A program made the translations under genes and the position numbers. A stretch of 64,000 nucleotides of DNA from Bacteroidota bacterium (GTDB taxonomy: Bacteria > Bacteroidota > Rhodothermia > Rhodothermales > UBA10348), in the NCBI GenBank assembly GCA_029262855.1, contig JAJCYP010000032.1:1-64000 (forward strand), in the 5' to 3' direction. The notes under the pieces are model-generated. The model made no database searches, was not told the DNA's origin, and saw only the letters and a list, made by a program, of their open reading frames with translations. Shown here piece after piece: positions 37,736-55,558 of this stretch. The first letter of the stretch is position 1. Every line of letters starts with the position of its first letter.

Positions 37736-39055
37736 ATGCGACTCAGCTGCATTCTTCTGCTTGCCGCTGCTTTCGCGTCCGCGCCGGCCTCCGCCCAGGT
37801 GGGTCACACGCTCAGCGGCGTGGGCCCGGTGGACCAGGCGTGGTCGGGTGCCGGTACCGCCAATCCCCAGGACATCATGGGGGCGCTGCACTGGAATCCA
37901 GCCGCGATCACCTCATTCCAGACGAACCAGCTGGGAGTGGGAATCCAGTTCCTTTTTCCCACGAGTGATCTCAACTCGTCGGTTGCGGCTGGGGCATTCG
38001 GTCCCGTCTTTGGTCCCCCTGTAGCCCTGGCCGGGACCACTGAAGGTGAAGCGGGTCCTTTCCCCATGCCATCGGTCGCCTACGTTCACGGGGCCGGGCA
38101 GTCAGACTGGACCTTTGGCGTGGGCGCATTCGTCGCCGGCGGATTCGGCACCGATTACCCTGCCGCCACGAGTCTGGCCGGGAATCCCATCAACACCCCC
38201 CAACCGCCTAATGGACTCGGCTTCGGCCACATATTCTCGGAGTTCGCTATGATGCAGCTGGCCCCGACGGTGGGATACCGGTTGTCGGACCGCGTATCGG
38301 TGGGCGTTGCGCCCACGATCAACTACGCGCTTCTGGAGGTGAGTCCGTTCCCTGCCGCGCCCCCAGACGACGCCAACGGGGACGGTTTCCCGAGCTACGC
38401 CGCCGCTCCGAGTACAGGAGCGCTCGGCTTTGGCTTCCAGGCGGGCATCCACGTCACGATGGACTCCGGATTCAGCCTGGGGGCGTCGTTCAAGAGTCCT
38501 CAGAATTTTTCCGAGTTCGAATTCGACGGGAAGGATGAGAGCGGCGCGCCCAAGCCGATGACGTTCGACCTGGACTACCCGATGATTCTGTCGGCTGGCG
38601 TCGGCTACTCGGGCCAGAAGATTGAACTGGCCGCCGATGTACGCTACCTGGACTACGAGAACACGAACGGTTTCCAGGAAGCTGGATTCGACAACACCGG
38701 GGCGGTCACCGGGTTTGGATGGAACAGCATCACGGCGTTTGCCGTGGGTCTGCAGTACAGGCTCACCGATAAACTGCCTGTTCGCGTGGGGTACTCGTTC
38801 AACGAAAATCCCATTGACGACGAGGTGACCTTTTTCAACACCCCGGCCAATGCCATCATTCAGAGCCGTATCAGCGGCGGCCTGAGCTTTGAGGCCACCG
38901 AGAAGGTGACTGCCTCAGCCGGATTTCAGTACGGGTTCGAGAACTCAATCGAGGGCAACTGGAAGCACCCCCAGTTCGGTACCATTCCGGGGACAAGCGT
39001 CGAGAGCACGCTTTCGACCCTCTTTGTAATGTTCGGTCTGCAATTTTCGCTGTAA
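37736..39055 (+). CDS. FadL/TodX-family outer-membrane transport protein
   Basis: 439 residues from ATG 37736, which starts a signal peptide (MRLSCILLLAAAFASAPASAQ). In-frame ATGs at 37691 and 37715 lengthen it. The mature N-terminus (GPVDQAWSGAGTANPQDIMGALHWNPAAITSF) is the FadL-type hatch. The rest is a 14-strand-type barrel ending LFVMFGLQFSL. The family imports hydrophobic compounds such as fatty acids and aromatics. Its stop is 22 bp before tusA on the same strand, so it is likely part of the sulfur operon and could admit a hydrophobic sulfur substrate (organosulfur compound or sulfur). That role is inference. Confidence 0.82.
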   Translation: MRLSCILLLAAAFASAPASAQVGHTLSGVGPVDQAWSGAGTANPQDIMGALHWNPAAITSFQTNQLGVGIQFLFPTSDLNSSVAAGAFGPVFGPPVALAGTTEGEAGPFPMPSVAYVHGAGQSDWTFGVGAFVAGGFGTDYPAATSLAGNPINTPQPPNGLGFGHIFSEFAMMQLAPTVGYRLSDRVSVGVAPTINYALLEVSPFPAAPPDDANGDGFPSYAAAPSTGALGFGFQAGIHVTMDSGFSLGASFKSPQNFSEFEFDGKDESGAPKPMTFDLDYPMILSAGVGYSGQKIELAADVRYLDYENTNGFQEAGFDNTGAVTGFGWNSITAFAVGLQYRLTDKLPVRVGYSFNENPIDDEVTFFNTPANAIIQSRISGGLSFEATEKVTASAGFQYGFENSIEGNWKHPQFGTIPGTSVESTLSTLFVMFGLQFSL

Positions 39056-39077
39056 CGCCACACTAACGCCAAGAGCC

Positions 39078-39320
39078 ATGTCTGAAATCACCATCGATGC
39101 CAAGCTGGACTGCACCGGGCTTCTGTGCCCCATGCCGGTCGTCAAGACCAAAAAGGCTCTGAAGCCCCTTGAGATCGGACAGACCCTGGAGATGATATCG
39201 ACAGATGCTGGCGCCACGCCCGATATGCAGGCATGGTCCCGGCAGACCGGTCACGACCTGCTATCTGCCGAGGAATTGGACGGTGGGGTCTACCGATTTG
39301 TCATAAGGAAGACCCACTGA
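39078..39320 (+). CDS. tusA: TusA-family sulfur carrier protein
   Basis: 80 residues, the normal TusA size. The conserved CPMP motif (Cys17-Pro-Met-Pro) holds the persulfide-carrying Cys, and a second Cys is at 12. In sulfur oxidisers with sHdr systems, TusA passes sulfane sulfur between DsrE-type proteins and the oxidation complex in the cytoplasm. It is the first cytoplasmic gene of the cluster, 32 bp before a DsrE-family gene, which agrees with that role rather than with tRNA thiolation. Confidence 0.93.
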   Translation: MSEITIDAKLDCTGLLCPMPVVKTKKALKPLEIGQTLEMISTDAGATPDMQAWSRQTGHDLLSAEELDGGVYRFVIRKTH

Positions 39321-39352
39321 CCCTGTCAAACACATAGCAGAGGAATCGTACC

Positions 39353-39874
39353 ATGCCTACAGACAACCACAAGCCGCGCCGTCTGGCCATAGTCTCCAGC
39401 AAGGGGACGCTCGATTGGGCCTATCCGCCGTTCATCCTCGCCAGCGCTGCGGCCGCTATGGATTGGGAAGTCGGCATCTTCTTCACCTTCTACGGCCTTC
39501 CGCTGCTCAAGAAGGATCTCACGGCCAGCGTTTCTCCAATGGGCAATCCTGCCATGCCCATGAAGATGCCCTTTGGTTCGGACGGTTTTCAGAACATTGA
39601 CTGGAAGATCCCCAACGTGCTCACGTCCAATCTGCCAGGGTTCGAGTCGGTGGCCACGTCTCTCATGAAGAAGTCATTCAAGAATAAGGGGGTCGCCACC
39701 GTTGAGGAGCTCCGCGAGATGTGCGTCGAGATGGATGCGCGCCTGATCGGGTGCCAGATGACCATGGACGTGTTCGGCTTCGAGAGGGGCGACTTTATTG
39801 ATGAGTGCGAAATCGGCGGAGCTGCCATGTTCCTGGAGTACGCGGCGGACGCGGACGTCAACCTCTTCATCTGA
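39353..39874 (+). CDS. DsrE-family sulfurtransferase (DsrE3-like, long form)
   Basis: 173 residues of the DsrE/DsrF/DrsH-like fold: LAIVSSKGTLDWAYPPFILASAAAAMDWEVGIFFTFYGL at the N-terminus and ARLIGCQMTMDVFGFERGDF with the conserved Cys134 likely to carry persulfide (others are Cys124 and Cys152). Such proteins trap and transfer sulfane sulfur with TusA in sHdr-containing organisms, where they are called DsrE3A. The subgroup is inferred from length and the MTMDVFG motif. It is followed 24 bp later by a lipoate ligase gene. Confidence 0.85.
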   Translation: MPTDNHKPRRLAIVSSKGTLDWAYPPFILASAAAAMDWEVGIFFTFYGLPLLKKDLTASVSPMGNPAMPMKMPFGSDGFQNIDWKIPNVLTSNLPGFESVATSLMKKSFKNKGVATVEELREMCVEMDARLIGCQMTMDVFGFERGDFIDECEIGGAAMFLEYAADADVNLFI

Positions 39875-39898
39875 GCGGTCACAGCAGACGAGCACGGT

Positions 39899-40981
39899 AT
39901 GCCCATCAGAGTTGTCGATGCGGGGGAGGTGTCGGGCCTGCGGTCGCAGGCGGCATACCATGGCGTGGCGAGGGCCTTCGAACCCACTACGCCGAACACC
40001 ATCGTAGTCCTTACGCCCGGGGATGCGCATGTCTGCATCGGGTTTCATCAGCGGGTCGCGGGAGAGGTTGATCTGGCGTACTGCCGGCGCGAGGGCCTGC
40101 CGGTCGTCCGGCGCGAAATAGGTGGAGGCACGGTTCTGTTGGACCGGGACCAGCTCTTTGTCCAGTGGATATTTCATCCCTCCAGTCTGCCGCGCCAGAT
40201 CGGGCAGCGGTTTGCCCTGTTCACCGCTCCGATGATTGCCGCGTTCCGGGAGTTCGGAATCCGGGCCGAGTATGTGCCCGCAAACGATGTCCAGGTCGAC
40301 GGCAGAAAGATCAGTGGCACGGGGGCCGGGGCGGTGTGTGAGGCGGAGATCGTGGTGGGCAACTTCCTCTTTGATTTTGACCATGAGCGTATGGCGCGCG
40401 TTCTGGATTTTCCGGACGACACGTTCCGGCGCAACTACCGGGAGGGTCTCTACCGCTACATGACCACCATGCGCCGAGAACTGGGCAAGGCTCCCGGCCG
40501 CGAACGCGTCAAGTCCGTCTACCTGAAGTACTGCGCCGAAGCACTGGGGGAGACGCTCGTGTCGGGAGAATTCTCGGCCCGCGAGTTGGAGGCGATGGAG
40601 GCCACCGAGTCCCGTTTCGCCACCCGGGAGTGGCTGCACCGGGAAGGGGGGCTGGAGCGCCCCGGCCGGAAGATCCACGCCGATGTCTGGGTATACCAGG
40701 GCACCGAATCCACGGCCCCGGGAAACATCCGCACGACGGTCCGACTCCGCCACGATACCATAGACGCCATCACATTTGATTGCGCCTTTCCGGTTCAGGA
40801 GAGCGGTGCCCTTCGGCGCCTGGAATCTGAACTGCGCCATGTGCGGCTGGCCCATGAGCCAGTGGCGGCGGCCGTAGACCGATCAAAGATACACCTGGGC
40901 CCCGGCGGCCTGGACCGAGGCGACGTGATTCGCGCCGTCCTCGGAGCCGGAGCACCAGCCAGCAGCATCGTGCATCCATAA
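39899..40981 (+). CDS. Lipoate-protein ligase-family protein
   Basis: 360 residues of the LplA/LipB/BirA fold. Substrate-binding motif RREIGGGT at 71-78, HVCIGFHQR near the N-terminus and the catalytic-type Lys137 in DGRKISGTGAG. A C-terminal accessory-like part (about 230-350) is present. It should adenylate lipoate or octanoate and attach it to Lys74 of one or both LbpA proteins. A second ligase gene, at 48325, keeps RRPTGGGA and Lys145, so this cell has two different family members in one cluster. Division of labour (octanoyl versus lipoyl, LbpA1 versus LbpA2) cannot be read from sequence. Confidence 0.82.
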   Translation: MPIRVVDAGEVSGLRSQAAYHGVARAFEPTTPNTIVVLTPGDAHVCIGFHQRVAGEVDLAYCRREGLPVVRREIGGGTVLLDRDQLFVQWIFHPSSLPRQIGQRFALFTAPMIAAFREFGIRAEYVPANDVQVDGRKISGTGAGAVCEAEIVVGNFLFDFDHERMARVLDFPDDTFRRNYREGLYRYMTTMRRELGKAPGRERVKSVYLKYCAEALGETLVSGEFSARELEAMEATESRFATREWLHREGGLERPGRKIHADVWVYQGTESTAPGNIRTTVRLRHDTIDAITFDCAFPVQESGALRRLESELRHVRLAHEPVAAAVDRSKIHLGPGGLDRGDVIRAVLGAGAPASSIVHP

Positions 40982-40999
40982 ACCTCGAACCCCTGACAC

Positions 41000-41380
41000 G
41001 TGGAAGACCCCGAAGGAAAGAAAATCCTGGTGATCCAGACCCATGGCGTGCAGACGCCCACCCGCACGTACTCCCCGCTATTCTATGCGATGGCGGCGGC
41101 CGCCATGGAAATGGAGGTGATGGTGTGGTTCACCATGGATGGCACCAATCAACTCAGAAAAGGAGCGGCCGAGAAGGTCCAACTCGATCCAACCAGCCAC
41201 GTGACACTCAAAACGATGCTTGAGATGGCGATGGATTCGGATGTGGAGTTGACGGTCTGCCAGCAGAGCCTGACACTGTGGGACATGACGCAGAGTGACT
41301 TGATCGACGGCGTTGGAATCATGGGCGCGACCAGCATCATTGACCTGTCGCTGTCGGCCGATCACGTGATGTACTTCTAA
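41000..41380 (+). CDS. DsrE-family sulfurtransferase (short form)
   Basis: 126 residues starting at GTG 41000 (MEDPEGKKILVIQTHGVQTPTRTYSPLFYAMAAAAMEMEV). There is no earlier or better start, and the next Met lies inside the conserved helix. Single Cys87 in LTVCQQSLTLWDM is the expected persulfide carrier. It resembles the short DsrE3-type proteins (DsrE3B) that accompany TusA in sHdr gene clusters. It lies 12 bp before the first lbpA gene, so sulfur delivery directly to LbpA or sHdr is likely. Confidence 0.85.
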   Translation: MEDPEGKKILVIQTHGVQTPTRTYSPLFYAMAAAAMEMEVMVWFTMDGTNQLRKGAAEKVQLDPTSHVTLKTMLEMAMDSDVELTVCQQSLTLWDMTQSDLIDGVGIMGATSIIDLSLSADHVMYF

Positions 41381-41392: not shown

Positions 41393-41860
41393 ATGGCTGA
41401 ACGCGAAGACATACACGGTTGCATTGTCCACAAGGAGTTGCACTACTCGGTGGAAGACCACACGTGGGTGCGCCCGAACGACGATGGCACCGTCACGGTA
41501 GGCATGACAGACATTGCCCAGGGTCTGGCAGGGCCCATTCTGCACGCCCGCATCAAGAAGGTGGGCACGGTCCGAAAAAAGGGCCGCCCCATCGCCACCG
41601 TCGAGAGCAGCAAATGGGTCGGACCGGTCAAGCTGCCGGTAGATGGAACCATCGCCGTGGTCAACGAGACGGTGGCATCCGATCCGCAGGTCATCAATCG
41701 GAGCCCGTACACCAAGGGTTGGTTGGTGAGAATCCAGCCGGACAATCTGGATGAGGACCTGGCGCAAATGGTGACCGGCCAGGCCGCTGTGGATGCGTAT
41801 CGCGAACGCATTGAAACAGAGGGCCTCACGTGCGCGCACGTGGCGGACTTCGAAGACTGA
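41393..41860 (+). CDS. lbpA1: Lipoate-binding protein LbpA (first copy)
   Basis: 155 residues, GcvH-like: HYSVEDHTWVRPNDDGTVTVGMTDIAQGLAGPI followed by the lipoylation site ATVESSKWVGP with Lys74. There are no glycine-cleavage genes nearby; instead it sits beside sHdr genes, the known context of LbpA, which is required for sHdr-type sulfur oxidation and is not exchangeable with GcvH. The lipoyl arm probably carries sulfur intermediates between sHdr active sites. Ends 10 bp before shdrC1. Confidence 0.92.
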   Translation: MAEREDIHGCIVHKELHYSVEDHTWVRPNDDGTVTVGMTDIAQGLAGPILHARIKKVGTVRKKGRPIATVESSKWVGPVKLPVDGTIAVVNETVASDPQVINRSPYTKGWLVRIQPDNLDEDLAQMVTGQAAVDAYRERIETEGLTCAHVADFED

Positions 41861-41870
41861 GGGCGGAGGC

Positions 41871-42581
41871 ATGGAATTCCCTCTGGACCTGAGTGGCAGT
41901 GCGTATCGAGACGTTCCATTTGAGGAAAAGGAGCGTCTTCTGGACGAGGTGAAGTCGGACCTCCGGTTCCAAGACGTGATGTACGGATGCTACGAGTGTG
42001 GCATCTGCGTGGCCGCCTGTCCGTCGGCCCGGTTCTACGATTTCAGCCCGCGGGTGATTGCCCAGGCGGTGGCCCGCGAAGACGCCGATCTGGTCTATAC
42101 GCTCATGAACGACAGCATCTGGGACTGCTCCCAGTGCTTTTCGTGTGACCGGTGTCCCCGAGCGAATTCTCCGGGCGGCCTCATCACGATCATGCGTGAG
42201 GTGGCCGTCAACAACGCCCTTCAGACGGCCCGGAAAGCGCTGGAGGGGTATGAGCGGATCATCTACAAGATCATGTCCACCGGGACGCAGGTGTCTCCGG
42301 ACATGTTGCAACCCGACGCGTTCCCCGACTGGGGAACACACGTGCATGAGATTGCGGACAATCTGGAGATCTGGCGCAGGGCGCTCCCGCCCGAGACGCT
42401 CCATACCACGGAGACGGGTTGGTCCATCGACGACAAGACCATCATCGAGCTCTACCTGATCTGGCACATGACCGGGGTCATGGATATGATCAAAGGTGTG
42501 GACGAAGGGCTCTTCATGATCCTGGTGGACGTGATGGAAGAACGTCTGGAAGAGGCGGGCTACGATGTGGAATTCGAATGA
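41871..42581 (+). CDS. shdrC1: sHdrC1, iron-sulfur subunit of sHdr complex
   Basis: 236 residues. ATG 41871 follows a good ribosome binding site (GGCGGAGG). Two [4Fe-4S] motifs: CYECGICVAACP (Cys40, 43, 46, 50) and CSQCFSCDRCP (Cys86, 89, 92, 95). The second has CxxCxxCxxC spacing. Like HdrC it should relay electrons between the HdrA flavin and the HdrB active site. The C-terminal half is helical and lacks further Cys. It is 39 bp upstream of shdrB1. Confidence 0.9.
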   Translation: MEFPLDLSGSAYRDVPFEEKERLLDEVKSDLRFQDVMYGCYECGICVAACPSARFYDFSPRVIAQAVAREDADLVYTLMNDSIWDCSQCFSCDRCPRANSPGGLITIMREVAVNNALQTARKALEGYERIIYKIMSTGTQVSPDMLQPDAFPDWGTHVHEIADNLEIWRRALPPETLHTTETGWSIDDKTIIELYLIWHMTGVMDMIKGVDEGLFMILVDVMEERLEEAGYDVEFE

Positions 42582-42620: not shown

Positions 42621-43823
42621 ATGAGTGATTTCATACCACTGGATGTCATAAACGGCGGTGCGCGTGGAAGGAAGTTCGAGTGGGACACCGCGCGTGCTCC
42701 CACCGAGGACTACCACGACGCGGTGCTTCAACTGGAGAAAGAGGGCGAGTGGGAAGTCCAGCGCGTGCCAGAACCGTACATCGAGGTTAATACGCGATAC
42801 GGCCGGGTCAAGAGGATTCCGATCGAGCGGACCTGGCACCACAAGAGCTGCGGGCAGTGCGGGCACATCCCCGGCTACTCCACCTCCATCTACTGGCTGA
42901 ACCGCAAGCTGGGGCTGGACTATCTGGACCCCAAGGACCAGACCTCGTGCACGGCGTGGAATTATTACGCCTCGGCTACCTCAAATCCGGCTGCTCAGGC
43001 CAGCGTGGCCATGCGCAATTTCGCGGCCGCGGCAGAGACGGACTACTTCCCGATCATCCACTGCGGAACGAGTTTTGGCCACTACAAGGAGGTGCGGCAC
43101 GAACTGATCCACCACCACGAACTCCGGAGGAAGGTGCGAGACGTGCTGTCCCGCCTCGGCAAGAAACTGGTGATGCCCGAAGAGATCGTGCACTACAGCG
43201 AGTGGGTGCATGTCATGCGGCACCGGTTTGCGGAGCTGCAGACGATAGACATGAGTCATATCACGGCCACGGTCCATCCGGCGTGTCACTACCACAAGCT
43301 CGAGGCGGAAGACGCCATCTACGACCCGGAGATCTACGGTGCTCAGCGCACCGCGGTCATCACCGGGACCCTGCAGGCCATCGGCGTCAACGTGGCGGAC
43401 TACTCCAGCTGGTACGACTGCTGCGGCTTTGGATTCAGGCACATCCTGGTCTCACGTGATTTCTCGCGCTCCTTTGCCGTTCAGCGCAAGATTGAGGTCA
43501 TGAAGGAAGAGGTGAATCCGGACGTAACGGTGACCCACGACACCGGCTGTGTGACCACACTGGATCAGAGCCAATTTGCGGGCCAGGCGCACGACAGAAA
43601 AGTTGGGATTCCGGTGATGTCGGACTCCCAGATGGCGGCACTGGCCATGGGTGCACACCCATACAAGGTGCTGCAACTCCACTGGCACAATACCAACAAC
43701 AAGCCCTTTCTGGAGAAGCTGGGGATCGATCAGGCCCAAAAATGGGCCGAATTCGAGGCCGCCTGTGACAAGCTCAAGAGCGGCGAAAAGAAATACCTGA
43801 CATGGGAGGATGCGGATGCCTAG
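42621..43823 (+). CDS. shdrB1: sHdrB1, catalytic-type subunit with CCG domain
   Basis: 400 residues. The second half has a CCG-type cluster motif: HPACHYHK, then YDCCGFGF and DTGCVTT, in the order expected for the cofactor-binding Cys of HdrB, though the last position reads CxxT rather than CxxC. The first half has SCGQCGHIPGYSTSIYW and a lone SCTAWNYYASAT. In HdrB proteins CCG domains bind unusual Fe-S clusters at which disulfide or C-S chemistry takes place. Its 3' end overlaps shdrA by 14 bp, indicating translational coupling. Confidence 0.9.
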   Translation: MSDFIPLDVINGGARGRKFEWDTARAPTEDYHDAVLQLEKEGEWEVQRVPEPYIEVNTRYGRVKRIPIERTWHHKSCGQCGHIPGYSTSIYWLNRKLGLDYLDPKDQTSCTAWNYYASATSNPAAQASVAMRNFAAAAETDYFPIIHCGTSFGHYKEVRHELIHHHELRRKVRDVLSRLGKKLVMPEEIVHYSEWVHVMRHRFAELQTIDMSHITATVHPACHYHKLEAEDAIYDPEIYGAQRTAVITGTLQAIGVNVADYSSWYDCCGFGFRHILVSRDFSRSFAVQRKIEVMKEEVNPDVTVTHDTGCVTTLDQSQFAGQAHDRKVGIPVMSDSQMAALAMGAHPYKVLQLHWHNTNNKPFLEKLGIDQAQKWAEFEAACDKLKSGEKKYLTWEDADA

Positions 43824-44883
43824 CAGTGACATTCTGGTGATCGGCGGCGGCCCCGCCGGGATCCAAGCGGCCCGCGGTATCGCGGACCTCGGATACAAGG
43901 CCATCGTGGTTGAAAAGCGAGACCGCCTGGGCGGAATGCCCGATGAAGCCGGGTACGCAGCCCTCACGCCCGATATGCGGGACACGGGCGAGGCCATCGC
44001 AGAAATGGTCGCCCCCATCCTGGACAATCCGGGTGTTGAACTGAGATTCGGTACAACGGCCACGGCCTGCACGGGGGTGGCGGGCGATTTCAACGTGACC
44101 CTCCAGAAGGCCGATGGGGCGGCCGAGGACATCTGCGTGGGCTCGGTCATAATCTGCACGGGCTTCAAGCATTTCGATCCGGGCCGCGAGACACAGCAGT
44201 ACGGCTACTACCAGTACGACGACGTGATCACGCTGGTGGATTGCGAACGGATGCTCAAGGCCAAGAACTTTGTTCGCCCGTCCAATGGCGAGGTGCCCGA
44301 GCGGGTCTGCTTCATCCAGTGCGTGGGATCGCGCGACCGACAGATTGGCAACGAATACTGCTCCAAGGTTTGTTGCGGCGTCGCGTCCAAGGAGGCCATC
44401 GAGATTCGCCAACAGGTACCCGGCTGTCGCGTATTCGTTTTCTACATCGACATGCGGATGTACGGCTACTGGGAAAATGAGATCTACTGGCCAGCCCAGG
44501 AGAAGTACAAGGTCAACTATGTCAAGGGAATCGCCACCGAAGTGGTCCGCAAGGGCGATAAACTCATTGTGAAGGGCGAGGACACGACGTTGCGCAGGCC
44601 CATGGAGGTCCCGATGGACATGGTGATTCTCTCGGTGGGCATGGAGCCCAGTGAAGGAACCGAGGCCATGGCCAAGGTCTTCGGCGTCAAGCAGAACAAG
44701 TACCGCTTCATTGAGACCATCGGGGGCGCGCTCGACACGGTGTCGACCACCGTCTCGGGGATTTTTGCGGCGGGGGCATGTACGGGCCCGGCCGATCTGG
44801 AGGACTCGACGTCCTCGGGCGGGGCGGCTGCGATGAAGGCCATCGCCTGCGTGCGCAAGGCCAACACTCAAATCCCGGCCTGA
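43810..44883 (+). CDS. shdrA: sHdrA, FAD- and FeS-binding subunit
   Basis: 357 residues, the short sHdrA form without the extra ferredoxin domains of methanogen HdrA. FAD-binding VIGGGPAGIQAARG at residues about 10-23 and EKRDRLGG, then the HdrA signature IQCVGSRD with Cys167/171 region and YCSKVCCGVASKEA (Cys184, 188, 189) for the [4Fe-4S] cluster. The C-terminal GIFAAGACTGPADLEDSTSSGGAAA closes the FAD domain. It is the central electron hub of the complex. Start ATG 43810 overlaps shdrB1; ATG 43816 is an alternative. Confidence 0.93.
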   Translation: MRMPSSDILVIGGGPAGIQAARGIADLGYKAIVVEKRDRLGGMPDEAGYAALTPDMRDTGEAIAEMVAPILDNPGVELRFGTTATACTGVAGDFNVTLQKADGAAEDICVGSVIICTGFKHFDPGRETQQYGYYQYDDVITLVDCERMLKAKNFVRPSNGEVPERVCFIQCVGSRDRQIGNEYCSKVCCGVASKEAIEIRQQVPGCRVFVFYIDMRMYGYWENEIYWPAQEKYKVNYVKGIATEVVRKGDKLIVKGEDTTLRRPMEVPMDMVILSVGMEPSEGTEAMAKVFGVKQNKYRFIETIGGALDTVSTTVSGIFAAGACTGPADLEDSTSSGGAAAMKAIACVRKANTQIPA

Positions 44884-44891: not shown

Positions 44892-45674
44892 ATGTCGACC
44901 ACCGTTGCCCTTGATACCGAAAGTGCCCGCGCCTTCATGGAGGAGGCGCTGGCGGGGATTGCCGATGAGGAGATCGATTCGATCTGTCAGGACGTAGCCC
45001 TGAAGAGCCGGTTCTTTCGGTCCAAGTTGGCGCCCAGCCCCGCGGCGGCGCGTGAGTCCGGGCCGCCGCGGGGCCCATCGCCGCCACTCGCCGACGAGGA
45101 CGTCCGGCGAATTCTGCGGGCCGTCTTTGCCACGCGTCGCCGGGTGGATTCCATAATGAAGGAGTACGGTGCCGAGGCCCTCGGGTCCTGGATGCGTGCG
45201 CTCGTGAGGGAGTCCGACCCGCTGGATACCCGCCTGCAGACCTTCGACGATGCGCTCTCGGCTTTGCCCGAGAGCCATCGATACGACCTGGCCACCGAGC
45301 TTCTGCACTTCACCTATCCGGAGCGCTATTGGCTGTGGACCCGCTGGATGTGGGATCCCAAGACTGACACGGGCGCGCTGCCGCTCGTGGTGTCGGAGGA
45401 CTTTGAACTCCACGCCGATTCCCTGCCCGAGCGATACCGGAATGTGGGCCGGGCGGTTGCCTTTGTGCAGCGTGTGGGTGAAGCCGCCGGATTTCGTGTT
45501 GCGGGTCGGGGTGCGTTCGCCACGGATGTGTACCTCAGTTTTGTGTACGTGATTTACGTCTATACCGTGCTGCGCATGCGGATGACCCAGGAATTCAATC
45601 GCGTCATGCCCGAGTTGCCGGAATTCTCCAGGCGCCTGTTGGGCGTAAAACAACCCTTGGACTATGCCTGTTGA
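44892..45674 (+). CDS. shdrH: sHdrH, conserved protein of sHdr clusters
   Basis: 260 residues from ATG 44892, 8 bp after shdrA. No cofactor motif or membrane segment was recognised; Cys is nearly absent apart from one near the N-terminus and one at the end. It is mostly helical with aromatic-rich stretches (FTYPERYWLWTRWMWDP, DVYLSFVYVIYVYTVLRM). Identification rests on position between shdrA and the next hdr gene and on size, as in known sHdr clusters, where the role of H is not established. Its 3' end overlaps shdrB3 by 11 bp. Confidence 0.78.
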   Translation: MSTTVALDTESARAFMEEALAGIADEEIDSICQDVALKSRFFRSKLAPSPAAARESGPPRGPSPPLADEDVRRILRAVFATRRRVDSIMKEYGAEALGSWMRALVRESDPLDTRLQTFDDALSALPESHRYDLATELLHFTYPERYWLWTRWMWDPKTDTGALPLVVSEDFELHADSLPERYRNVGRAVAFVQRVGEAAGFRVAGRGAFATDVYLSFVYVIYVYTVLRMRMTQEFNRVMPELPEFSRRLLGVKQPLDYAC

Positions 45675-47378: not shown

Positions 47379-48319
47379 CAACCGCCACCCTGGAGGAGGA
47401 TCCGTTCGGGGTGCGACAGGCGCACTTCCCGGATGAAATCAGCTTCTTTGCCCCCGGACTCAAACGGTTCAGTACGGCGGAGTTCGAGCAGAGAATGCCG
47501 AGGGCCTTTCTGCCGATCAGCCTGACCGGCAGCGCGTGCGCCCTGAAGTGTGACCACTGCGATACGCGCATTCTCGACCCCATGATTGCGCTCGACCGGA
47601 GGGAGGGCCTGTTGGCCCTGTGCCGCAGGCTGCACGAGACCGGGACGACGGGCGTGCTTATCAGTGGCGGCTCGCTTCGAGACGGCACGGTGCCCTTGAT
47701 GAAACACATGGAGGACATCGCCCGGGTCCGCTCTGAATTGGGTATGCGGGTAATGGTCCATACGGGGGTGGTCAAAGAGGAAACCTCGGCGGCCCTCAAG
47801 GATGCCGGTGTGGAGGGGGTGATGCTGGACATCATCGGCGATGACGCGACCATCCGGGACGTGTATCACCTGAACCTGACTACCCGCGATTTTGACCATT
47901 CGCTGGAGGTGCTTGCCGCTCACGGGCACAGCATCAGGCCTCACATCATTCTGGGCCTCAACTGGGGGAAGATCCAGGGCGAGTACCAGGCGCTAGAGAT
48001 GATCAGCCGCTACCCGGTCCACGCTCTGGTACTGGTCATTCTCACGCCGTTGACGGGGACTCCCATGCAGGGCGTGACTCCGCCGCCGGTCGAAGACATT
48101 GAGGCCTTCTTTCGAACCGCAAGGCTGACCATGCCTGATACACTGATCATGTTGGGTTGCGCCCGCCCGGCCGGCGCCCACAAGGCGGCGGTGGACAGGG
48201 CAGCGGTAGACTGCGGCCTGAACGGGATTGCGTATCCCGCCGAGGGCATCGTTGACTACGCACGCTCGCGTAGTCTCTCCTTCCGGTTTCACGAACACGC
48301 CTGCTCCTGCGGATGTTGA
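47363..48319 (+). CDS. lipS1: LipS-type radical SAM lipoyl synthase (probably LipS1)
   Basis: 318 residues from ATG 47363, with ribosome binding site GGAGGAAGG. Radical SAM motif CALKCDHC (Cys59, 63, 66) and SAM-binding ISGGSLRDG. The C-terminus ends HEHACSCGC, a Cys cluster suited to an auxiliary Fe-S cluster that donates sulfur. In the LipS1/LipS2 pathway two such enzymes together insert two sulfurs into protein-bound octanoate, replacing LipA. Which of the two LipS genes here is LipS1 is inferred from gene order only. It has a lipoate ligase gene 5 bp downstream. Confidence 0.78.
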   Translation: MAGRVTTATLEEDPFGVRQAHFPDEISFFAPGLKRFSTAEFEQRMPRAFLPISLTGSACALKCDHCDTRILDPMIALDRREGLLALCRRLHETGTTGVLISGGSLRDGTVPLMKHMEDIARVRSELGMRVMVHTGVVKEETSAALKDAGVEGVMLDIIGDDATIRDVYHLNLTTRDFDHSLEVLAAHGHSIRPHIILGLNWGKIQGEYQALEMISRYPVHALVLVILTPLTGTPMQGVTPPPVEDIEAFFRTARLTMPDTLIMLGCARPAGAHKAAVDRAAVDCGLNGIAYPAEGIVDYARSRSLSFRFHEHACSCGC

Positions 48320-48324
48320 CACCC

Positions 48325-49491
48325 ATGCCAGATTGGAGATACATCGAAGAAGACGATGTGGCCGCGGACTACGGGTTGGCGGCCGATGAGTACCTGAGGA
48401 GCGCAGCCACCGGCACCCTGGGCGGCCCCGCCCTCAGGCTCTACACGTACCGTTCCCATTGCGCTCTGGCGGGCCGGTTTCAGAACATCCAGGCGGAGAT
48501 TGATCTGGAGTACTGCCGGCGCGCGGGGATCGCGGTTGGCAGGCGGCCCACCGGCGGAGGGGCCATCATCATGGGTAAGGGTCAGCTGGGCGTCTGCTTT
48601 ACGGCCCCGGCTTCGTATTCGCTGATTGCCGACTGTGGCCAGCTGCCGCCGGGGGAGATTTACCGGGTTCTGTCGCGTCCCATCGTCTCGGCGCTGGCCC
48701 GGCTCGGGATCACCGCCTCCTTTGGGGGGCGCAATGATCTGGAGGTAGACGGGCAGAAGATTGCCGGGCTGGGCGTCTGTTATGATGCGGCGGGCTCGAT
48801 GCTCTTCCACGCCAGCGTGCTGGTGGACCTGGACGTCGACCTGATGCTGAAGGTGCTGAAGGTGCCCGCACAGAAGATCCACGGCAAAGCCAGAGTCGGG
48901 GCCGTCGAGGAGCGGATCACCACGGCGAGTCGTCTGCTTGGGGCGCCCGTCTCCACGGACGAGGTGCGCGGGCACCTGCGGCAGGCCTACGAAGATGCGT
49001 TTGACATTTCGCTCAGGCCCCGGGACTTCTCGAGCGCCGAGCGTGAGGAGATTGAGACCCTGGCGGCCACCAAGTACCGCACGGAGGACTGGCTCTACCA
49101 GCGCACGCCCCAGCGGGACATGACCGGGATGAGCGTGGTCCGGACCCCGGCAGGCGTACTTCGCACATACGTGGGCCTGATGGGCAACACCATCAAGAGT
49201 GTGCTCATCACCGGCGATTTCTTCGAGTCGGCCGGCGTGTTCAACCAGTTCGAGACCCGCCTGAAGTGGAGTCCCATGGACCGCAAGGCCATCGCGGCAG
49301 CCGCGGCCGACGTGCTGCAGGAAGACTCCGGCCTGGGAATTGAGCCTCGACACCTGGTGCGGGCCGTCTGGCAGGCCGGCCAGCGCGCCCTGCGGGAAGA
49401 CGGCCACACCTACGACGGGTCGTGCTACTACCCGGACTCAAAAGGCACGCCGGAGTCGGTGGCCGATCCCCAAACCCATTCGCACGCGTAG
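48325..49491 (+). CDS. slpl: Lipoate:protein ligase of the sLpl(AB) type
   Basis: 388 residues from ATG 48325. ATG 48313, overlapping the upstream stop, is an alternative. The LplA/LipB fold has SHCALAGRFQNIQAEID, RRPTGGGAIIMGKGQ (73-87) and Lys145 in DGQKIAGLGVC. A C-terminal LplB-like accessory domain (about 250-360) is fused, as in the sLpl(AB) ligases found beside lbpA and lipS genes in sHdr-containing bacteria. Placed between the two lipS genes, it probably loads octanoate or lipoate on LbpA. Distinct from the ligase at 39899. Confidence 0.85.
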   Translation: MPDWRYIEEDDVAADYGLAADEYLRSAATGTLGGPALRLYTYRSHCALAGRFQNIQAEIDLEYCRRAGIAVGRRPTGGGAIIMGKGQLGVCFTAPASYSLIADCGQLPPGEIYRVLSRPIVSALARLGITASFGGRNDLEVDGQKIAGLGVCYDAAGSMLFHASVLVDLDVDLMLKVLKVPAQKIHGKARVGAVEERITTASRLLGAPVSTDEVRGHLRQAYEDAFDISLRPRDFSSAEREEIETLAATKYRTEDWLYQRTPQRDMTGMSVVRTPAGVLRTYVGLMGNTIKSVLITGDFFESAGVFNQFETRLKWSPMDRKAIAAAAADVLQEDSGLGIEPRHLVRAVWQAGQRALREDGHTYDGSCYYPDSKGTPESVADPQTHSHA

Positions 49492-49498: not shown

Positions 49499-50590
49499 AT
49501 GGAAGTTATCGCCTCGGAAGCCATCACCAGCCCACCACAGGTCAGCCCGGACTGGGTCCGCCTGAGCGGCGCGAGCGCCATGGCGCTTCGCCTGGCCTCC
49601 GGCCGATTCAGCCGGGACTTTGACTTCGGCGGCATCAATCTGCTGCTCAACTATGACGAGGGCTGCCTGTCGGACTGCGCCTACTGCGGCCTGGCGCGGA
49701 CGCGGCCGGGCCACTACGAGGAGAAGTCCTTCATCCGGGTAGACTGGCCGCTGGTGGAGACCGACGTGCTGGCTGAGCGCATGGCCGAGCACAAAGACTC
49801 TCTGACGCGCCTTTGCATCTCCATGGTCACCCACGCCAGGGCGTTCAAGGACACGGTCGACATCACCGAGCGCGTCGCCCGGAAGGTGGACACGCCCATG
49901 TCGATCCTTGTGGCTCCGCCCACCCTCAACTATGACCGGCTGAAGACCTTCCGGGAAGTAGGGGTGGATATGATTGGCATCGGACTGGACGCGGTGACCG
50001 AGGAGCTTTTCCGCCAGAAACGGACGGACGTCCCAAATGGTGGGCTGAAGTGGGACAACTACTGGAACGTGGTGGAGTGGTCGCGACAGCTTTTCGGGCC
50101 GTGGAAGGTGAATTGCCACACCCTCGTGGGCCTCGGCGAGACGGATTACGACATGGCCCAGATGTTCTTCCGTCTCAAGAGCATGGAGGTGTTTTCCTAC
50201 CTGTTCAACTTCAACCCGGAGCCGGACAGCCGGATGGGGCATCAACCGGTGGCTCCGCTCACGCGGTGGCGGCGCATCCAGCTGATGAAGACCCTCATCG
50301 AGGAGTACGATCTGGCCGCGGATCGCCTGACCTTCGACGACGCAGGCGCGCTCTGCGGTCTCCGCGCAGACTCTCCGCAACTGGACCACATGATCAGGCG
50401 CGTTGCCGCCCAGGGCACGGCATTCATGACGGACGGCTGCCCCAGTTCCGGTGGAGAACCCGGCTGTACACGGCCCTACGGCAGCTACAAACCCAGCGAC
50501 CCGTACCGAGACTACCCCTTCCAGCCAGACGTCGATGATCTGGCGGCCATCCGAGGCGAACTCAGGCTGGACGAACTGCTCCGCGCATGA
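49499..50590 (+). CDS. lipS2: LipS-type radical SAM lipoyl synthase (probably LipS2)
   Basis: 363 residues from ATG 49499, 7 bp after the ligase stop. Radical SAM motif CLSDCAYCGLARTRPG (Cys56, 60, 63), with biotin-synthase-like features such as VGLGETDYDMAQMFF and FNFNPEPDSRMG. The C-terminal DGCPSSGGEPGCTRPYGSY may hold auxiliary-cluster Cys. With the other LipS it should convert octanoyl-LbpA to lipoyl-LbpA. The LipS1/LipS2 labels may be swapped. No lipT-like flavoprotein, which accompanies these genes in some organisms, is seen. Confidence 0.8.
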   Translation: MEVIASEAITSPPQVSPDWVRLSGASAMALRLASGRFSRDFDFGGINLLLNYDEGCLSDCAYCGLARTRPGHYEEKSFIRVDWPLVETDVLAERMAEHKDSLTRLCISMVTHARAFKDTVDITERVARKVDTPMSILVAPPTLNYDRLKTFREVGVDMIGIGLDAVTEELFRQKRTDVPNGGLKWDNYWNVVEWSRQLFGPWKVNCHTLVGLGETDYDMAQMFFRLKSMEVFSYLFNFNPEPDSRMGHQPVAPLTRWRRIQLMKTLIEEYDLAADRLTFDDAGALCGLRADSPQLDHMIRRVAAQGTAFMTDGCPSSGGEPGCTRPYGSYKPSDPYRDYPFQPDVDDLAAIRGELRLDELLRA

Positions 50591-50627: not shown

Positions 50628-51389
50628 ATGCACATAGTCGTTCCCATCAAACTGGTCCCCGACCTGGCCGAAGAACTCGAGGTGGATGCATCGGGGACGG
50701 CCCTGGACACCGAGTGGCTTCGGTACCGTACCAACGAGTTCGACGACCACGCGCTCGAGGAGGCGCTGCAACTGCGAGAGGTCTCGGGCGGCACCGTGAC
50801 CGCAATTGCCCTGGATGCGGAGGAGGCGGACAAGAGCCTCTATACCGCCGCGGCCAAGGGAGCGGACAGGCTGATCAAGATCACTGGGGCGGGCGAGAAG
50901 CCCTCCAGCCACGCTACCGCGCGTGCGTTCGCTGACGCCATCGCGGGCCTGGATGCCGATCTGGTCCTGACCGGCGTGCAGGCCGTGGACGACCGCGACG
51001 GCCAGAACGCCGTATTGATTGGCCGCTACATGGATATTCCCCACGTGAGCGTGGTGACGGGCGTGAGCATCCAGGGGGATACCGCCCTGGTCCACAAGGA
51101 ATATGCCGGCGGCGCGATGGGAGAATTTGAGGTCACCCTTCCTGCGGTCCTGGGTATCCAGGCGGCGCGCGAGACCCCCCGCTATGCTCCAGTGGGCAAG
51201 GTGCGGCGTGCCATGCGCAGCGCCACGATTGAGGAGCTGGCCTCCTCCGGCACTGCTGAAGCCGGGTCCTCCGTGACCCGCATGTTCAGGCCAGAGAAGG
51301 GACAGGGAGCCAAGATGCTGACCGGATCAGCGGATGCCATCGCCGACCAACTCATCACCATTATGCGCGACAACGGGGTGAACCTATGA
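50628..51389 (+). CDS. etfB: Electron transfer flavoprotein beta subunit
   Basis: 253 residues from ATG 50628 (MHIVVPIKLVPDLAEELEVD). It has the EtfB pattern: NEFDDHALEEALQLRE, a nucleotide-binding loop near DADLVLTGVQAVDDRDGQNAVLIGRYMDIPHVSVV and the C-terminal arm. It forms a heterodimer with EtfA, binding AMP or a second FAD. In this cluster it probably takes electrons from the sHdrA/B3 complex and hands them to EMO in the membrane. It overlaps etfA by 4 bp. Confidence 0.92.
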   Translation: MHIVVPIKLVPDLAEELEVDASGTALDTEWLRYRTNEFDDHALEEALQLREVSGGTVTAIALDAEEADKSLYTAAAKGADRLIKITGAGEKPSSHATARAFADAIAGLDADLVLTGVQAVDDRDGQNAVLIGRYMDIPHVSVVTGVSIQGDTALVHKEYAGGAMGEFEVTLPAVLGIQAARETPRYAPVGKVRRAMRSATIEELASSGTAEAGSSVTRMFRPEKGQGAKMLTGSADAIADQLITIMRDNGVNL

Positions 51390-52351
51390 GTGCCGATGTA
51401 TTCATTGTGACCGAACACCTGGGCGGCAGCCTGGACGATGTCACGTTCGAGCTGCTGGGCAAGGGCCGCGATCTGGCAACGTCCACCGGCGGGCAGTTGG
51501 TGGCCGTCCTCATGGGGAGTGGCGCCGAGGGGCTGGCCGCCGAGCTCGGGGCCGCCGACCGCGTACTGTACGTGGACCATCCGGCGCTGGCCGACTTCAA
51601 TCCCGCGACCCACGGCGCGGCCCTGGCGGCCGTCGTCGGAGAGCGGAGTCCACAGATCGTGCTCGTGGGCAACACCTCGATGGGTATGGACCTGGCCGCC
51701 GCCTTATCGGTCGATGCCGACCTGCCGCTCATAGCCTACGCCACCGGCGTTGAGCACGGGGCCGACGGGCTCACCGTCACGAGCCAGCTCTACGCGGGCA
51801 AGATGCATGTAGAATCCAGGCCCACCGGCGGCCGGTGCATCATCTCAGTCATGGCGGGCTCCTTCGACGGGTCTGCGGGCCGGGGTGGGGGATCTCCCGA
51901 GGTGGAATCCTACGCCGCTCCTGCTTCCATTGAATCTTCCCGGGTGCGGTTTGTCCGCCTCATGGAGCCGGAAGCTGGCGATGTCGACATCACCCAGAGC
52001 GATATTCTGGTGAGCATCGGAAGGGGTATCCAGAGCGAGGATAATATCCCGATGGCCCAGGAACTGGCCGACGCCCTGGGGGGCGCAGTGTCCGCATCGA
52101 GGCCCATTATTGACAACAAGTGGTTACCCAAGACCCGGCAGGTGGGCAAGTCAGGCGTGAAGGTAAAACCCAGACTCTACCTGGCCCTTGGGATCAGCGG
52201 CGCGCCAGAGCACTGGGAGGGCATGAAAGACTCCCAGTTGATCATTGCCGTCAATACCGACCCCAATGCGCCCATCTTTGACTTTGCCCACTACGGTGTG
52301 ACCGAAGACATCTTCGAGGTGATGCCGGCACTCACCGCCCGGGTCACGTGA
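51386..52351 (+). CDS. etfA: Electron transfer flavoprotein alpha subunit
   Basis: 321 residues. The FAD-binding C-terminal domain is complete: DILVSIGRGIQSEDNIPMAQELADALGG, SRPIIDNKWLPKTRQVGKSGVKVKPRLYLALGISGAPEHW and IIAVNTDPNAPIFDFAHYGVTEDIFEVMPAL. It starts ATGAG over the etfB stop (4-bp overlap), so the subunits are co-translated. It is a soluble electron carrier between the sHdr complex and the membrane oxidoreductase encoded 31 bp downstream. Confidence 0.94.
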   Translation: MSADVFIVTEHLGGSLDDVTFELLGKGRDLATSTGGQLVAVLMGSGAEGLAAELGAADRVLYVDHPALADFNPATHGAALAAVVGERSPQIVLVGNTSMGMDLAAALSVDADLPLIAYATGVEHGADGLTVTSQLYAGKMHVESRPTGGRCIISVMAGSFDGSAGRGGGSPEVESYAAPASIESSRVRFVRLMEPEAGDVDITQSDILVSIGRGIQSEDNIPMAQELADALGGAVSASRPIIDNKWLPKTRQVGKSGVKVKPRLYLALGISGAPEHWEGMKDSQLIIAVNTDPNAPIFDFAHYGVTEDIFEVMPALTARVT

Positions 52352-52382
52352 GCGCAACTTGAAGCACGCGGGGTGCTGAACC

Positions 52383-54479
52383 ATGGAAACGCGCGAGATT
52401 TTTAGAGCTTTTCCCTTCCTCATGCAGGCCGCGTTCTACGTGGTTGCCATGCTGGCCATTGCCGTATTCCTCTACGGATTCTGGCAGCGGATAGCCAAGT
52501 ATCGGAAGGGTTCGGCGGCTCAGCGTTTCGATAAGCTGGGGGCGCGCATCCTGCGGGCCTCCCGGTTGATGACCACAAACGCCACGGTCTGGAAGCGGGA
52601 TTCGTACGCCGGCCTGGCGCACCTCTTGATCTTCTGGGGATTCGTGGTCCTGTTCATCGGTACCACCATCATTGCCATCGATCACGATGTGCTCAGGTTC
52701 TTTGGTGTGCACACGCTCAAGGGCACGTTCTATCTGTGGTTTTCCCTGTCGATGGACGTATTCGGAGTGCTCTTCATCGTGGGCCTGGTCATGATGGTGG
52801 TGCGGCGCGGCGGCCTGCGGCCCGCGCAGTTGGATTACGCCCGGTCAGACCGGCCCGGCCAGGTGGTGGACCGAAGCGGGTTCACGCGCGATGATCAGAT
52901 CTTCTTGTGGCTTCTTTTTCTGGTGGCTGTCACGGGCTTTCTGCTGGAGGGACTCCGGATTTCGGCCGACCGACCCTCTTTTGAAGTCTGGTCTCCGGTG
53001 GGCTGGGCCGTAGCGAACCTGCTGGACGCCGTGGGACTGAGGTCTTCGGCGCACTCGCTGCACGCCTACACCTGGTGGATCCACGCGGTCATGGTGCTGG
53101 GGTTCATTGGGTACATCCCGTACTCCAAGGCCATGCACATGCTGGTGGACTTCGCGAACCTGGTCTTCCAGGACGACATGGCCGCCAAGAGGCTTCCCCG
53201 GGTTTCCGAGGAGAAGATGAAAGTGGGGGCGGGCTACGCGGCTATCACAGACTTTTCGTGGAAAGAACTGCTGGACCTGGACGCCTGCACCAAGTGCGGG
53301 AGATGCCATGTGGCCTGCCCGGCCAATGCATCCGGTGGCCCGCTCTCACCGCGCGATTTGATCCTGGATCTTCGCACGTATGCCGATGCCTCGATTGGGC
53401 GCCCCGAATGGCTGGGCCAGTCCTTTGGCGATGGGGCCAACTGGCCGGGCGACAAGGTAGCGGGTATCTCCGTACCGGGGGACGTCATCCGCCCGGAGAC
53501 CCTCTGGGCGTGTACAACCTGCATGGCCTGTGTGGAAACGTGCCCGGTGGGCATTGAGCACGTCACCAGCATCGTCCAGATGCGGCGCCACCTGGTGGAG
53601 GAGGGAGAGATGGAGGACTCCCTCCAGGATGCACTCGCCAACATCGGGGACTACGGCAATTCTTTCGGGCAGTCCGAACGGGCCCGCGCCAGGTGGACGC
53701 GCGAACTCGACTTCCAGATCAAGGATGCGCGCAAGGAGGAGGTGGAGTTCCTCTGGTTCGTGGGGGACTACGCGTCCTATGATCCCCGTGGCCAGGAGTT
53801 GTCCCGGTCGGTGGCTCGAGTACTCCACGCCCTCTCGGTCGATTTCGGCCTCCTCTACGAAGGGGAGAAGAATGCCGGCAACGACGTCAGGCGTGTGGGC
53901 GAGGAAGGCCTCTACGAGATGCTGGCCGAGGACAACATTGCCACGCTGGAGAAGGCCCGCTTCCGGGAGATCATCACCACCGACCCGCACTCCTACAACA
54001 CGATACGGAACGAGTACCCCGAATTCGGTGGCCAGTACTCCATTCGCCACTATACCGCTCTCCTGGCAGACTGGATCGAAGAAGGCAGAGTACCCATCGC
54101 CCGGAAACTCAATGTAAAGGCCACCTACCACGACCCCTGCTATCTGGGCCGGTACAACGACGGCGTGGCACCGCCGCGACGGATTCTGGAGGCGCTCGGC
54201 GTGGATTTCCACGAGATGGCCCGCTGCGGCAAGAATTCCTTCTGCTGCGGCGCCGGCGGCGGGCGCATATGGATGGACGACTCCGGCCTCGAGGAGCGCC
54301 CGAGCGAGATCCGTATCCGTGAGGCCCTCGAGATCGAGGGCGTGGAGGTGTTTGTCGTGGCCTGCCCCAAGGACTACGCCATGTATACCGATGCCGTCAA
54401 GACCTCAGGCAACGAGGGGCGGATTGTGGTCAAGGACATCATTCAACTGGTCGAAGAGGCGCTGCAGCCTACCGTGTGA
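52383..54479 (+). CDS. emo: EtfAB:quinone oxidoreductase EMO (cytochrome b/FeS/CCG fusion)
   Basis: 698 residues. The N-terminal 260 residues have about five membrane segments (for example MQAAFYVVAMLAIAVFLYGF, HLLIFWGFVVLFIGTTIIAI and HAVMVLGFIGYIPYSKAMHM) with His residues suited to haem b, like NarI-type cytochromes. Two [4Fe-4S] motifs follow: CTKCGRCHVACP (about 302) and CTTCMACVETCP (about 377). The C-terminal part has two CCG-domain folds. The second is intact (HDPCYLGRYN at 586, NSFCCGAGGG near 621, VACPKDYAM). The first has lost its Cys: VGDYASYDPRG and EKNAGNDVRR stand where sHdrB3 has VECYPAYHPRG and EEKCTCDSQR. It should pass electrons from EtfAB to menaquinone. The last 4 bp overlap the next gene. 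Confidence 0.87.
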   Translation: METREIFRAFPFLMQAAFYVVAMLAIAVFLYGFWQRIAKYRKGSAAQRFDKLGARILRASRLMTTNATVWKRDSYAGLAHLLIFWGFVVLFIGTTIIAIDHDVLRFFGVHTLKGTFYLWFSLSMDVFGVLFIVGLVMMVVRRGGLRPAQLDYARSDRPGQVVDRSGFTRDDQIFLWLLFLVAVTGFLLEGLRISADRPSFEVWSPVGWAVANLLDAVGLRSSAHSLHAYTWWIHAVMVLGFIGYIPYSKAMHMLVDFANLVFQDDMAAKRLPRVSEEKMKVGAGYAAITDFSWKELLDLDACTKCGRCHVACPANASGGPLSPRDLILDLRTYADASIGRPEWLGQSFGDGANWPGDKVAGISVPGDVIRPETLWACTTCMACVETCPVGIEHVTSIVQMRRHLVEEGEMEDSLQDALANIGDYGNSFGQSERARARWTRELDFQIKDARKEEVEFLWFVGDYASYDPRGQELSRSVARVLHALSVDFGLLYEGEKNAGNDVRRVGEEGLYEMLAEDNIATLEKARFREIITTDPHSYNTIRNEYPEFGGQYSIRHYTALLADWIEEGRVPIARKLNVKATYHDPCYLGRYNDGVAPPRRILEALGVDFHEMARCGKNSFCCGAGGGRIWMDDSGLEERPSEIRIREALEIEGVEVFVVACPKDYAMYTDAVKTSGNEGRIVVKDIIQLVEEALQPTV

Positions 54480-55558
54480 GACAGACGCTTGGCACATACT
54501 TGGAAGACCCTCTCTTGGGGCGGCTCTACGCCGACATCCGGGCGGCCGGCCGCGTGCGCTCCATTTCGGTGGACCTGACCCACCAGTGCAACCTGAGGTG
54601 CACCGGGTGCTACTATTTTTCGGAGGGCATGGACCGCTTCCAGACCCAGCGGGATGACTCGGTGTTTGACCGCTTCCTGGAGAGCGAGATTGCGCGCGGT
54701 ACCAACTTCGTGACCGTGGTGGGCGGAGAGCCCAGCCTGGAGCTGGGACGCCTCAAGAAAGTCTACGACCGGTTCTGGATGAACGTGGCCACCAACGGGC
54801 TTCGCCGGATTCCGCGCGAGGGCTTCGAGCGTATGCCGATCGGGGTCTCGCTCTGGGGCAACCACTCGACGGACCTGGTCATGCGCGGCGGCGGACGGAC
54901 CGACGTCTTCACGCGCGCCCTGAAGAACTACCGGGATGACCCCCGCGCCTTCTGGTATTACACCGTCTCGCCCGGAAAGGCCCACGAGATCGAGGGTGTT
55001 GTCCGGACCTGCGTCGAGAACGGAAACCGCGTCCTTTACAACTACTACAGCGACATCGACGGACTGGGGGGCGAGCTGGATTACCGGCAGGGCTTCTCCG
55101 ACGTGCGGCGCGCCATCGACCGCACCATCGAGCAGTATCCCGACCAGATCCTCATGACCTCCTACTTCAGCGAGATCGTGGCCACCGGGCACCTGTTCGG
55201 GCAGAAGTGGGGACACGACGTGTGCACGAACACCACCTTCGATCACCCCGCCAATGCCGTCCGGGTGCAGAACGGCAACCCCTTCAACCCCCACTTCAGA
55301 GCCTACAACGCCGATTTTACTACAACTCGTCGTTGCTGCACCGGCATCGACCGGGATTGCGAGAGTTGCCTGGACGTCTGGGAGCACTTCTCCTGGATCA
55401 TGCTCAACATGCGCAAACACCTGGCCTCCAGGCAGGCCTTCACCGACTGGCTGACCACGATGTACCTGTTCTACCTCATCAACAGGATCGTCGATTTCGA
55501 GAGCGGCGTGAAGCTGCTGCCGGAGATCCACCGGCTGAGCGGGGTATCGACCTCGTAG
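54476..55558 (+). CDS. Radical SAM protein of unknown function at the end of the sHdr cluster
   Basis: 360 residues from GTG 54476, which overlaps the emo stop as GTGTGA. Radical SAM motif CNLRCTGCYYF (Cys38, 42, 45) and TVVGGEPSLELGRL (the GGE SAM-binding motif). The C-terminal region has CCTGIDRDCESCLDVW, a Cys-rich block like the auxiliary-cluster domain of SPASM/twitch enzymes. It does not resemble LipS1 or LipS2 beyond the core. Translational coupling to emo suggests a function for this pathway: maturation of a cofactor or peptide, or a modification of LbpA or EMO. No substrate can be named. Confidence 0.82.
   Translation: MRQTLGTYLEDPLLGRLYADIRAAGRVRSISVDLTHQCNLRCTGCYYFSEGMDRFQTQRDDSVFDRFLESEIARGTNFVTVVGGEPSLELGRLKKVYDRFWMNVATNGLRRIPREGFERMPIGVSLWGNHSTDLVMRGGGRTDVFTRALKNYRDDPRAFWYYTVSPGKAHEIEGVVRTCVENGNRVLYNYYSDIDGLGGELDYRQGFSDVRRAIDRTIEQYPDQILMTSYFSEIVATGHLFGQKWGHDVCTNTTFDHPANAVRVQNGNPFNPHFRAYNADFTTTRRCCTGIDRDCESCLDVWEHFSWIMLNMRKHLASRQAFTDWLTTMYLFYLINRIVDFESGVKLLPEIHRLSGVSTS

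Follow-up and report, generated by a model that had tools for sequence, protein, structure and literature searches.

A probable type II sHdr-LbpA operon for sulfane sulfur oxidation in a Rhodothermales genome

The window, which is the whole stretch of 64,000 nucleotides analysed here (positions 1 to 64,000 of contig JAJCYP010000032.1, assembly GCA_029262855.1), carries 19 contiguous genes that fill positions 37736-55558, all on the plus strand and with spacings of -14 to +39 bp. The 19 genes listed by the first-pass annotation, their order and their maximal gap of 39 bp are all present as it described them. Families were assigned using Pfam and NCBIfam profiles, and these agree with the gene names given there except that the first gene named dsrE is a dsrE2 and that the second LbpA is devoid of the usual two cysteines. 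The same gene set, mostly in the same order, was seen again in dozens of loci of other phyla, and the metal-ligand cysteines and catalytic lysines are kept across 14-61 homologues; this recurrence and conservation indicate that the gene set is more than a chance assembly. No sulfur-responsive regulator was seen in the operon of the window. ArsR-family regulators, comparable to sHdrR/SoxR, adjoin the sHdr operons of 11 relatives (loci L023, L038, L039, L042, L043, L047, L049, L050, L067, L073 and L077), which fits with a control by sulfane sulfur.

The first gene (37736-39055) encodes a FadL/OmpP1-like outer-membrane barrel (PF03349, E 1.5e-26), a candidate for the uptake of hydrophobic substrates, for which we preferred the start at 37736 on account of its signal peptide (the longest open reading frame begins at 37691). 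Sulfur-transfer genes come next: tusA (39078-39320; PF01206, E 1.3e-25), for a sulfur carrier with an invariant C17 and a single copy in the genome; dsrE2 (39353-39874; NF047629, 213 bits for a curated cut-off of 210), for a sulfurtransferase with an invariant C134; and, behind the LplA-type lipoate/octanoate-protein ligase gene lpl1 (39899-40981; PF21948, E 3.7e-32; catalytic lysine motif GRKISG kept), a gene for a second DsrE-family sulfurtransferase (41000-41380; PF02635, E 1.7e-19; C87 invariant). The gene for the GcvH-like lipoate-binding protein LbpA1 (41393-41860; PF01597, E 2.3e-34) precedes the core genes. These are shdrC1 (41865-42581), for an HdrC-like protein with two [4Fe-4S] clusters and 8 cysteines invariant in 52 sequences; shdrB1 (42621-43823; PF02754), for an HdrB-like CCG protein, the proposed catalytic subunit, with 8 cysteines invariant in 53 sequences; shdrA (43810-44883), for a FAD/FeS protein of 357 aa; shdrH, or Hyp (44895-45674); and shdrB3 (45664-46926), whose 420-aa product fuses an HdrC-like dicluster part to a CCG HdrB-like part and has 12 cysteines invariant in 61 sequences. 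Downstream lie lbpA2 (46923-47378; PF01597, E 2.6e-22), the genes for two putative radical SAM lipoyl synthase halves, lipS1 (47366-48319) and lipS2 (49499-50590), on either side of lpl2 (48313-49491), then etfB (50628-51389; PF01012), etfA (51386-52351; PF01012 and PF00766), a gene for an EMO-like membrane protein (52383-54479) and a gene for a third radical SAM protein (54476-55558).

Type II sHdr systems have been defined by the presence of shdrC1B1AHB3 and etfAB in one cluster, B3 corresponding to fused C2 and B2 (PMC11582611). In the window, shdrC1B1AHB3 and etfAB lie together in one cluster, the 4Fe-4S dicluster and the CCG domain are within the single B3 protein, a hallmark of the type, and the separate shdrC2 and shdrB2 genes of type I are absent. 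The complete EtfAB/EMO-type sHdr cluster announced by the first-pass annotation is therefore present, and the best explanation of the operon, to which we give a probability of about 0.8, is that it is a complete type II sHdr-LbpA operon oxidising sulfane sulfur. The EMO-like gene directly follows etfA; its product combines a hydrophobic, membrane N-terminal part with two [4Fe-4S] clusters and a CCG domain, and its cluster-type cysteines (sets 302-312, 377-387 and 586/621/622/661) are invariant in 41 sequences, features of a putative ETF:menaquinone oxidoreductase. The nearest solved relative of EtfB is the non-bifurcating ETF 1o94, which suits a plain electron-transfer role.

The distant Hdr homology, and the ties of Etf proteins to bifurcation in other systems, would also be in keeping with a reductive or bifurcating Hdr complex, in which disulfide reduction is powered by ETF or quinol. 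However, sHdrA aligned end to end with the Hyphomicrobium denitrificans sHdrA (6tjr) at 296 bits (42% identity over 338 aligned residues), whereas the methanogen HdrA proteins, of about 650 residues, gave 213 bits or less and over the core only. The protein thus groups with H. denitrificans sHdrA and not with ordinary HdrA; a grouping with the latter had been named beforehand as fatal to the sHdr assignment. A canonical HdrABC was rejected on the short sHdrA and on the absence from the operon of hydrogenase and formate dehydrogenase partner genes (MvhAGD, FdhAB). As the EtfB relationship to 1o94 and the accompanying TusA, DsrE, LbpA and LipS proteins, which form the oxidative set (PMC6067878, PMC11582611), also speak against it, we regard a reductive complex as highly unlikely.

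The conserved core protein sHdrH has no Pfam or NCBIfam family. The fold of its AF2 model (pLDDT 88) is similar to that of helix-hairpin-helix DNA glycosylases, with Z 7.5 to 3fhf and 3n0u and lower scores for further members of that fold; a Foldseek search of the model against the PDB gave no significant match (best E 0.6). We take this predicted resemblance as a lead, not as a result.

The oxidative reading is further backed by the lipoate-binding proteins. In the LbpA proteins of sHdr systems, a lipoyl lysine is accompanied by two cysteines that are strictly conserved (PMC6067878), and LbpA1 has all three residues (K74, C10 and C147). LbpA2 keeps K74 and has no cysteine, and most of its homologues have zero or one; it is a lipoyl-carrier-like protein, which we did not assign as a typical sHdr LbpA. 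The second ligase, Lpl2, is LplA-type with a C-terminal domain (PF21948 and PF10437) and an invariant catalytic Lys149. LipS1 and LipS2 have an invariant CX3CX2C motif, and their best NCBIfam matches are both under the curated cut-offs (NF053742, 225.8 bits for a cut-off of 230, and NF053743, 178.6 bits for a cut-off of 270, respectively). The third radical SAM protein has the CX3CX2C motif and six further invariant cysteines. It is 55-66% identical among aligned loci (14 loci), and its gene lies at most 0.4 kb from lipS2, lpl, emo or tusA in all 14 other loci, immediately behind lipS2 in five of them; across 395 genomes of the phylum, the protein was found in two, both sHdr-bearing. Its structural model resembles SPASM-type enzymes (BlsE, Z 13.3; SkfB, Z 12.6), the cysteine regions being of low confidence. 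This protein is an undescribed sHdr-associated family, and together with LbpA2 it makes up the least described part of the operon. It may mature LbpA or another sHdr protein. A more specific reading, which we hold tentatively and at somewhat less than even odds, is that the operons of the Bacteroidota/KSB1/Planctomycetota type form a type II sub-kind with a SPASM-like radical SAM enzyme maturing LbpA or sHdr and with LbpA2 as a carrier served by its own ligase. Both dedicated parts would then be new, and LbpA2 could act as a lipoate assembly platform or relay upstream of LbpA1. For studies of the sHdr pathway, the gene of this third radical SAM protein, being conserved, offers a concrete target.

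We asked whether the operon belongs to the genome in which it was found. The assembly comprises 4.74 Mb in 146 contigs, is 98.95% complete and has a contamination estimate of 4.29%. The taxonomic placement called for earlier identifies the host as a member of the Rhodothermia: its alternative complex III (ACIII) subunit B scores 1280 bits to Rhodothermus marinus vs 437 bits to Flavobacterium johnsoniae, the chains compared being those of PDB entries 6f0k and 6btm. T9SS-type sorting domains flank the operon on both sides, in line with the T9SS-bearing genome described beforehand. Genes for a SNF2-type helicase and for CsgG-like, caspase-like (Peptidase_C14) and papain/DUF900 proteins lie to the left of the operon (26041-37392); of the genes to its right (57318-58001), one belongs to the TIGR02574 addiction-module family and another is Uma2 nuclease-like. 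That the operon came from another organism by an assembly or binning artefact might be argued from the number of contigs and the contamination estimate, from its absence in other members of the class and from left-flank DNA unmatched in two congeners. However, it is located within a contig (C32) of 100,277 bp that shows collinearity with the congener G001 between 67 and 100 kb, at 70-79% DNA identity; its tetranucleotide signature correlates at 0.88-0.93 with the remainder of this contig and with two others (C123 and C3) vs 0.41-0.73 with the related loci of other phyla, and its GC and GC3 equal those of the host sequence compared. An artefact is barely credible on these data, and the collinearity and matching oligonucleotide signature likewise contradict the chimeric junction between 37 and 56 kb against which the first-pass annotation had warned. 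The operon is native and ameliorated. An empty-site comparison with G001 did not locate the insertion point of the operon, since synteny breaks off near contig position 67 kb.

Scanning of GTDB contigs with sHdrB3 yielded 60 related loci, in Saprospiraceae, Cyclobacteriaceae, KSB1, Calditrichota, Planctomycetota and Sulfobacillus. The operons of the Saprospiraceae, Cyclobacteriaceae, KSB1 and Calditrichota metagenome-assembled genomes (MAGs; L022-L081) have a gene order near-identical to that of the window, the nearest relative (L024, KSB1) being 78% identical over four core proteins; they differ in that several have an ArsR regulator ahead, in the variable positions of the radical SAM and etf genes and in that most are without a recognisable FadL gene. 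In a core-gene tree, the window falls in a 26-row clade with KSB1, Calditrichota and Bacteroidota (SH-aLRT 97), beside a KSB1/Planctomycetota clade and apart from Sulfobacillus, its exact sister being unplaced. Plasmids were searched for type I outgroups and yielded a single weak match, a cyanobacterial one.

Within the host class the full operon is absent from the other 243 of 244 genomes, the sHdrA search in relatives covering 119. In the phylum sample (n=395 genomes), a related operon was found in G247 and G309 only. Matches to sHdrB3 with E<1e-60 occurred in 114 of the 395 genomes, and most of these are a widespread membrane CCG protein, roughly 680 aa long, which was rejected; a real sHdrB3 gene was present among them only in G000, G247 and G309. 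Genomes G190, G364 and G520, where B3-like genes adjoin distant HdrA-like genes, were left out of the count. The loci of two of these, L133 and L134 (G364 and G520, other Bacteroidota), contain etfBA, emo, a B3-like gene (43%) and a pair of HdrA-like genes (about 30%), with no C1 or B1. The absence of the operon from the other 243 class genomes points to a horizontal origin, loss in all relatives being the less likely reading. Pairwise distances of the sub-modules correlate with r 0.50 to 0.94 (core vs Etf-EMO, r 0.94), and the operon was likely acquired largely as a unit, probably from a Calditrichota/KSB1/Bacteroidota pool. The occurrence in a heterotroph-like, T9SS-bearing lineage had been singled out as unusual; this stands for the host class, in which the operon is unique, but not more widely, as operons of this kind occur in many MAGs assigned to Saprospiraceae and Cyclobacteriaceae and also in KSB1, Calditrichota and Planctomycetota, and the same type was already reported in the heterotroph Thermomicrobium roseum (PMC6776052).

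The Bacteroidota locus L028 has a molybdoenzyme gene next to sHdr, and we searched for this enzyme in six genomes. The host carries it on a second contig (C50), in a neighbourhood that encodes an MBL-rhodanese protein, two SulP-type sulfate transporters, a sulfide:quinone oxidoreductase (SQR; 366 bits to mitochondrial SQOR), a SoeA-like protein, a fused SoeBC-like protein and MobA. The congener G001, which has no sHdr, bears the same set, without the MBL-rhodanese gene in the stretch fetched; within the genus, the module therefore predates the operon. Between the SQR gene and a SulP gene lies a gene for a 307-aa protein (L151, 4771-5694) with no Pfam or NCBIfam match and 34% identity in G001. 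The SoeABC-like set has the domains of the molybdoenzyme, FeS and membrane subunits, and in other lineages at least seven loci (L028, L070, L073, L075, L076, G247 and G309) have a SoeA-like gene next to sHdr; the locus of the host also occurs in congeners lacking sHdr, hence it is not sHdr-specific. As SoeA has no curated model, sulfite oxidation is called here from synteny and domain composition, which support, and do not prove, sulfite as the substrate. The check for sulfite-oxidation genes in the rest of the genome, proposed by the first-pass annotation, thus yielded a candidate beside SQR. The single match to the PF00174 sulfite oxidase family reads as MsrP, a Tat protein, and was rejected.

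Searches of the whole genome for the single families AprA and SoxB detected neither, the sole SoxB-like match being below the cut-off, which extends to the genome the earlier remark that no Sox genes were in view. Without SoxB and AprA, the use of thiosulfate that had been suggested is unsupported in its direct, Sox-type form, and sulfide is the better-supported source. The gene content of the second locus accordingly suggests that sulfide is the probable starting compound and that sulfate is the probable product. The MBL-rhodanese protein could compete for persulfide. Organic sulfur is the other source to be weighed: the operon might serve the use of organosulfur compounds or thiols (volatile methyl-sulfur compounds, or long-chain thiols via the FadL-like porin), sHdr oxidising the sulfur released. 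The FadL-like gene does stand first in the operon, other sHdr organisms are tied to organic sulfur and thiol oxidation was proposed in T. roseum (PMC6776052). However, just two of the 41 complete loci compared had a match to FadL (rapid divergence may conceal further ones), genes for methanethiol or dimethyl sulfide were not seen in the operon and the genome encodes SQR, so that we consider this reading unlikely.

The observed parts, namely the genes with their order, families and conserved residues, and the genomic SQR, SoeABC-like and ACIII genes, may be assembled into a sulfide-based pathway. SQR would probably yield sulfane sulfur from sulfide, and TusA and the DsrE proteins would bring it to the sHdr complex (C1B1A-H-B3). 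This complex would oxidise the sulfane sulfur to sulfite with lipoate-loaded LbpA1 as a swinging-arm carrier, LbpA being presumably lipoylated on site by the Lpl ligases with LipS1/LipS2. Electrons would pass from EtfAB to EMO, menaquinone, ACIII and a terminal oxidase, and the sulfite would probably be oxidised by the SoeABC-like enzyme adjoining SQR. On this scheme, the operon probably joined an SQR-SoeABC module that was already old in the genus. Substrate, direction, electron path and the expression of the genes are inferred, the mechanistic steps from the known family.

With this operon, the EtfAB/EMO type of cytoplasmic sulfur oxidation now reaches the Rhodothermota, and one genome pairs it with candidate SQR and SoeABC-like enzymes, so that a SoxB- and AprA-independent path from sulfide to sulfate can be put to the test. 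Screens based on the type I order hdrC1B1A-hyp-hdrC2B2, as in a Bohai Sea study (PMC12345210), would overlook such lineages. We found no report of sHdr in Rhodothermales in the open-access literature searched. Earlier descriptions of etfAB-bearing type II clusters come from Firmicutes and Actinobacteria (PMC6067878), from Sulfobacillus (PMC4378227) and from Thermomicrobium (PMC6776052). The type I system of Hyphomicrobium denitrificans resembles that of the window in its sHdrA homologue, LbpA, LipS1/LipS2, sLpl, TusA and DsrE but has separate C2 and B2 instead of B3, and the type I core definition comprises neither etfAB nor EMO (PMC11582611). T. roseum, a heterotroph of a different phylum (Chloroflexota), has a 19-gene hdr-etf cluster with hdrABC, etfAB, tusA, dsrE1, dsrE2 and several lbpA genes (PMC6776052), a likeness drawn from published gene content and not gene by gene. 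The type II system of Sulfobacillus ('Group III' of Cao et al. 2018, PMC6067878; type II of PMC11582611) shares with the window shdrC1B1AHB3, etfBA, lbpA, tusA, dsrE and the Lpl ligase, its loci likewise have an EMO-like gene behind etfBA, and its core proteins are 57-70% identical to those of the window; compared with it, the operon of the window adds in-operon lipS1/lipS2, a second ligase, a second LbpA and the third radical SAM gene. Taken together, these comparisons indicate that the operon adds a member to the already known type II kind, and its clade may count as a variant on account of the third radical SAM gene and of LbpA2 with its lack of cysteines.
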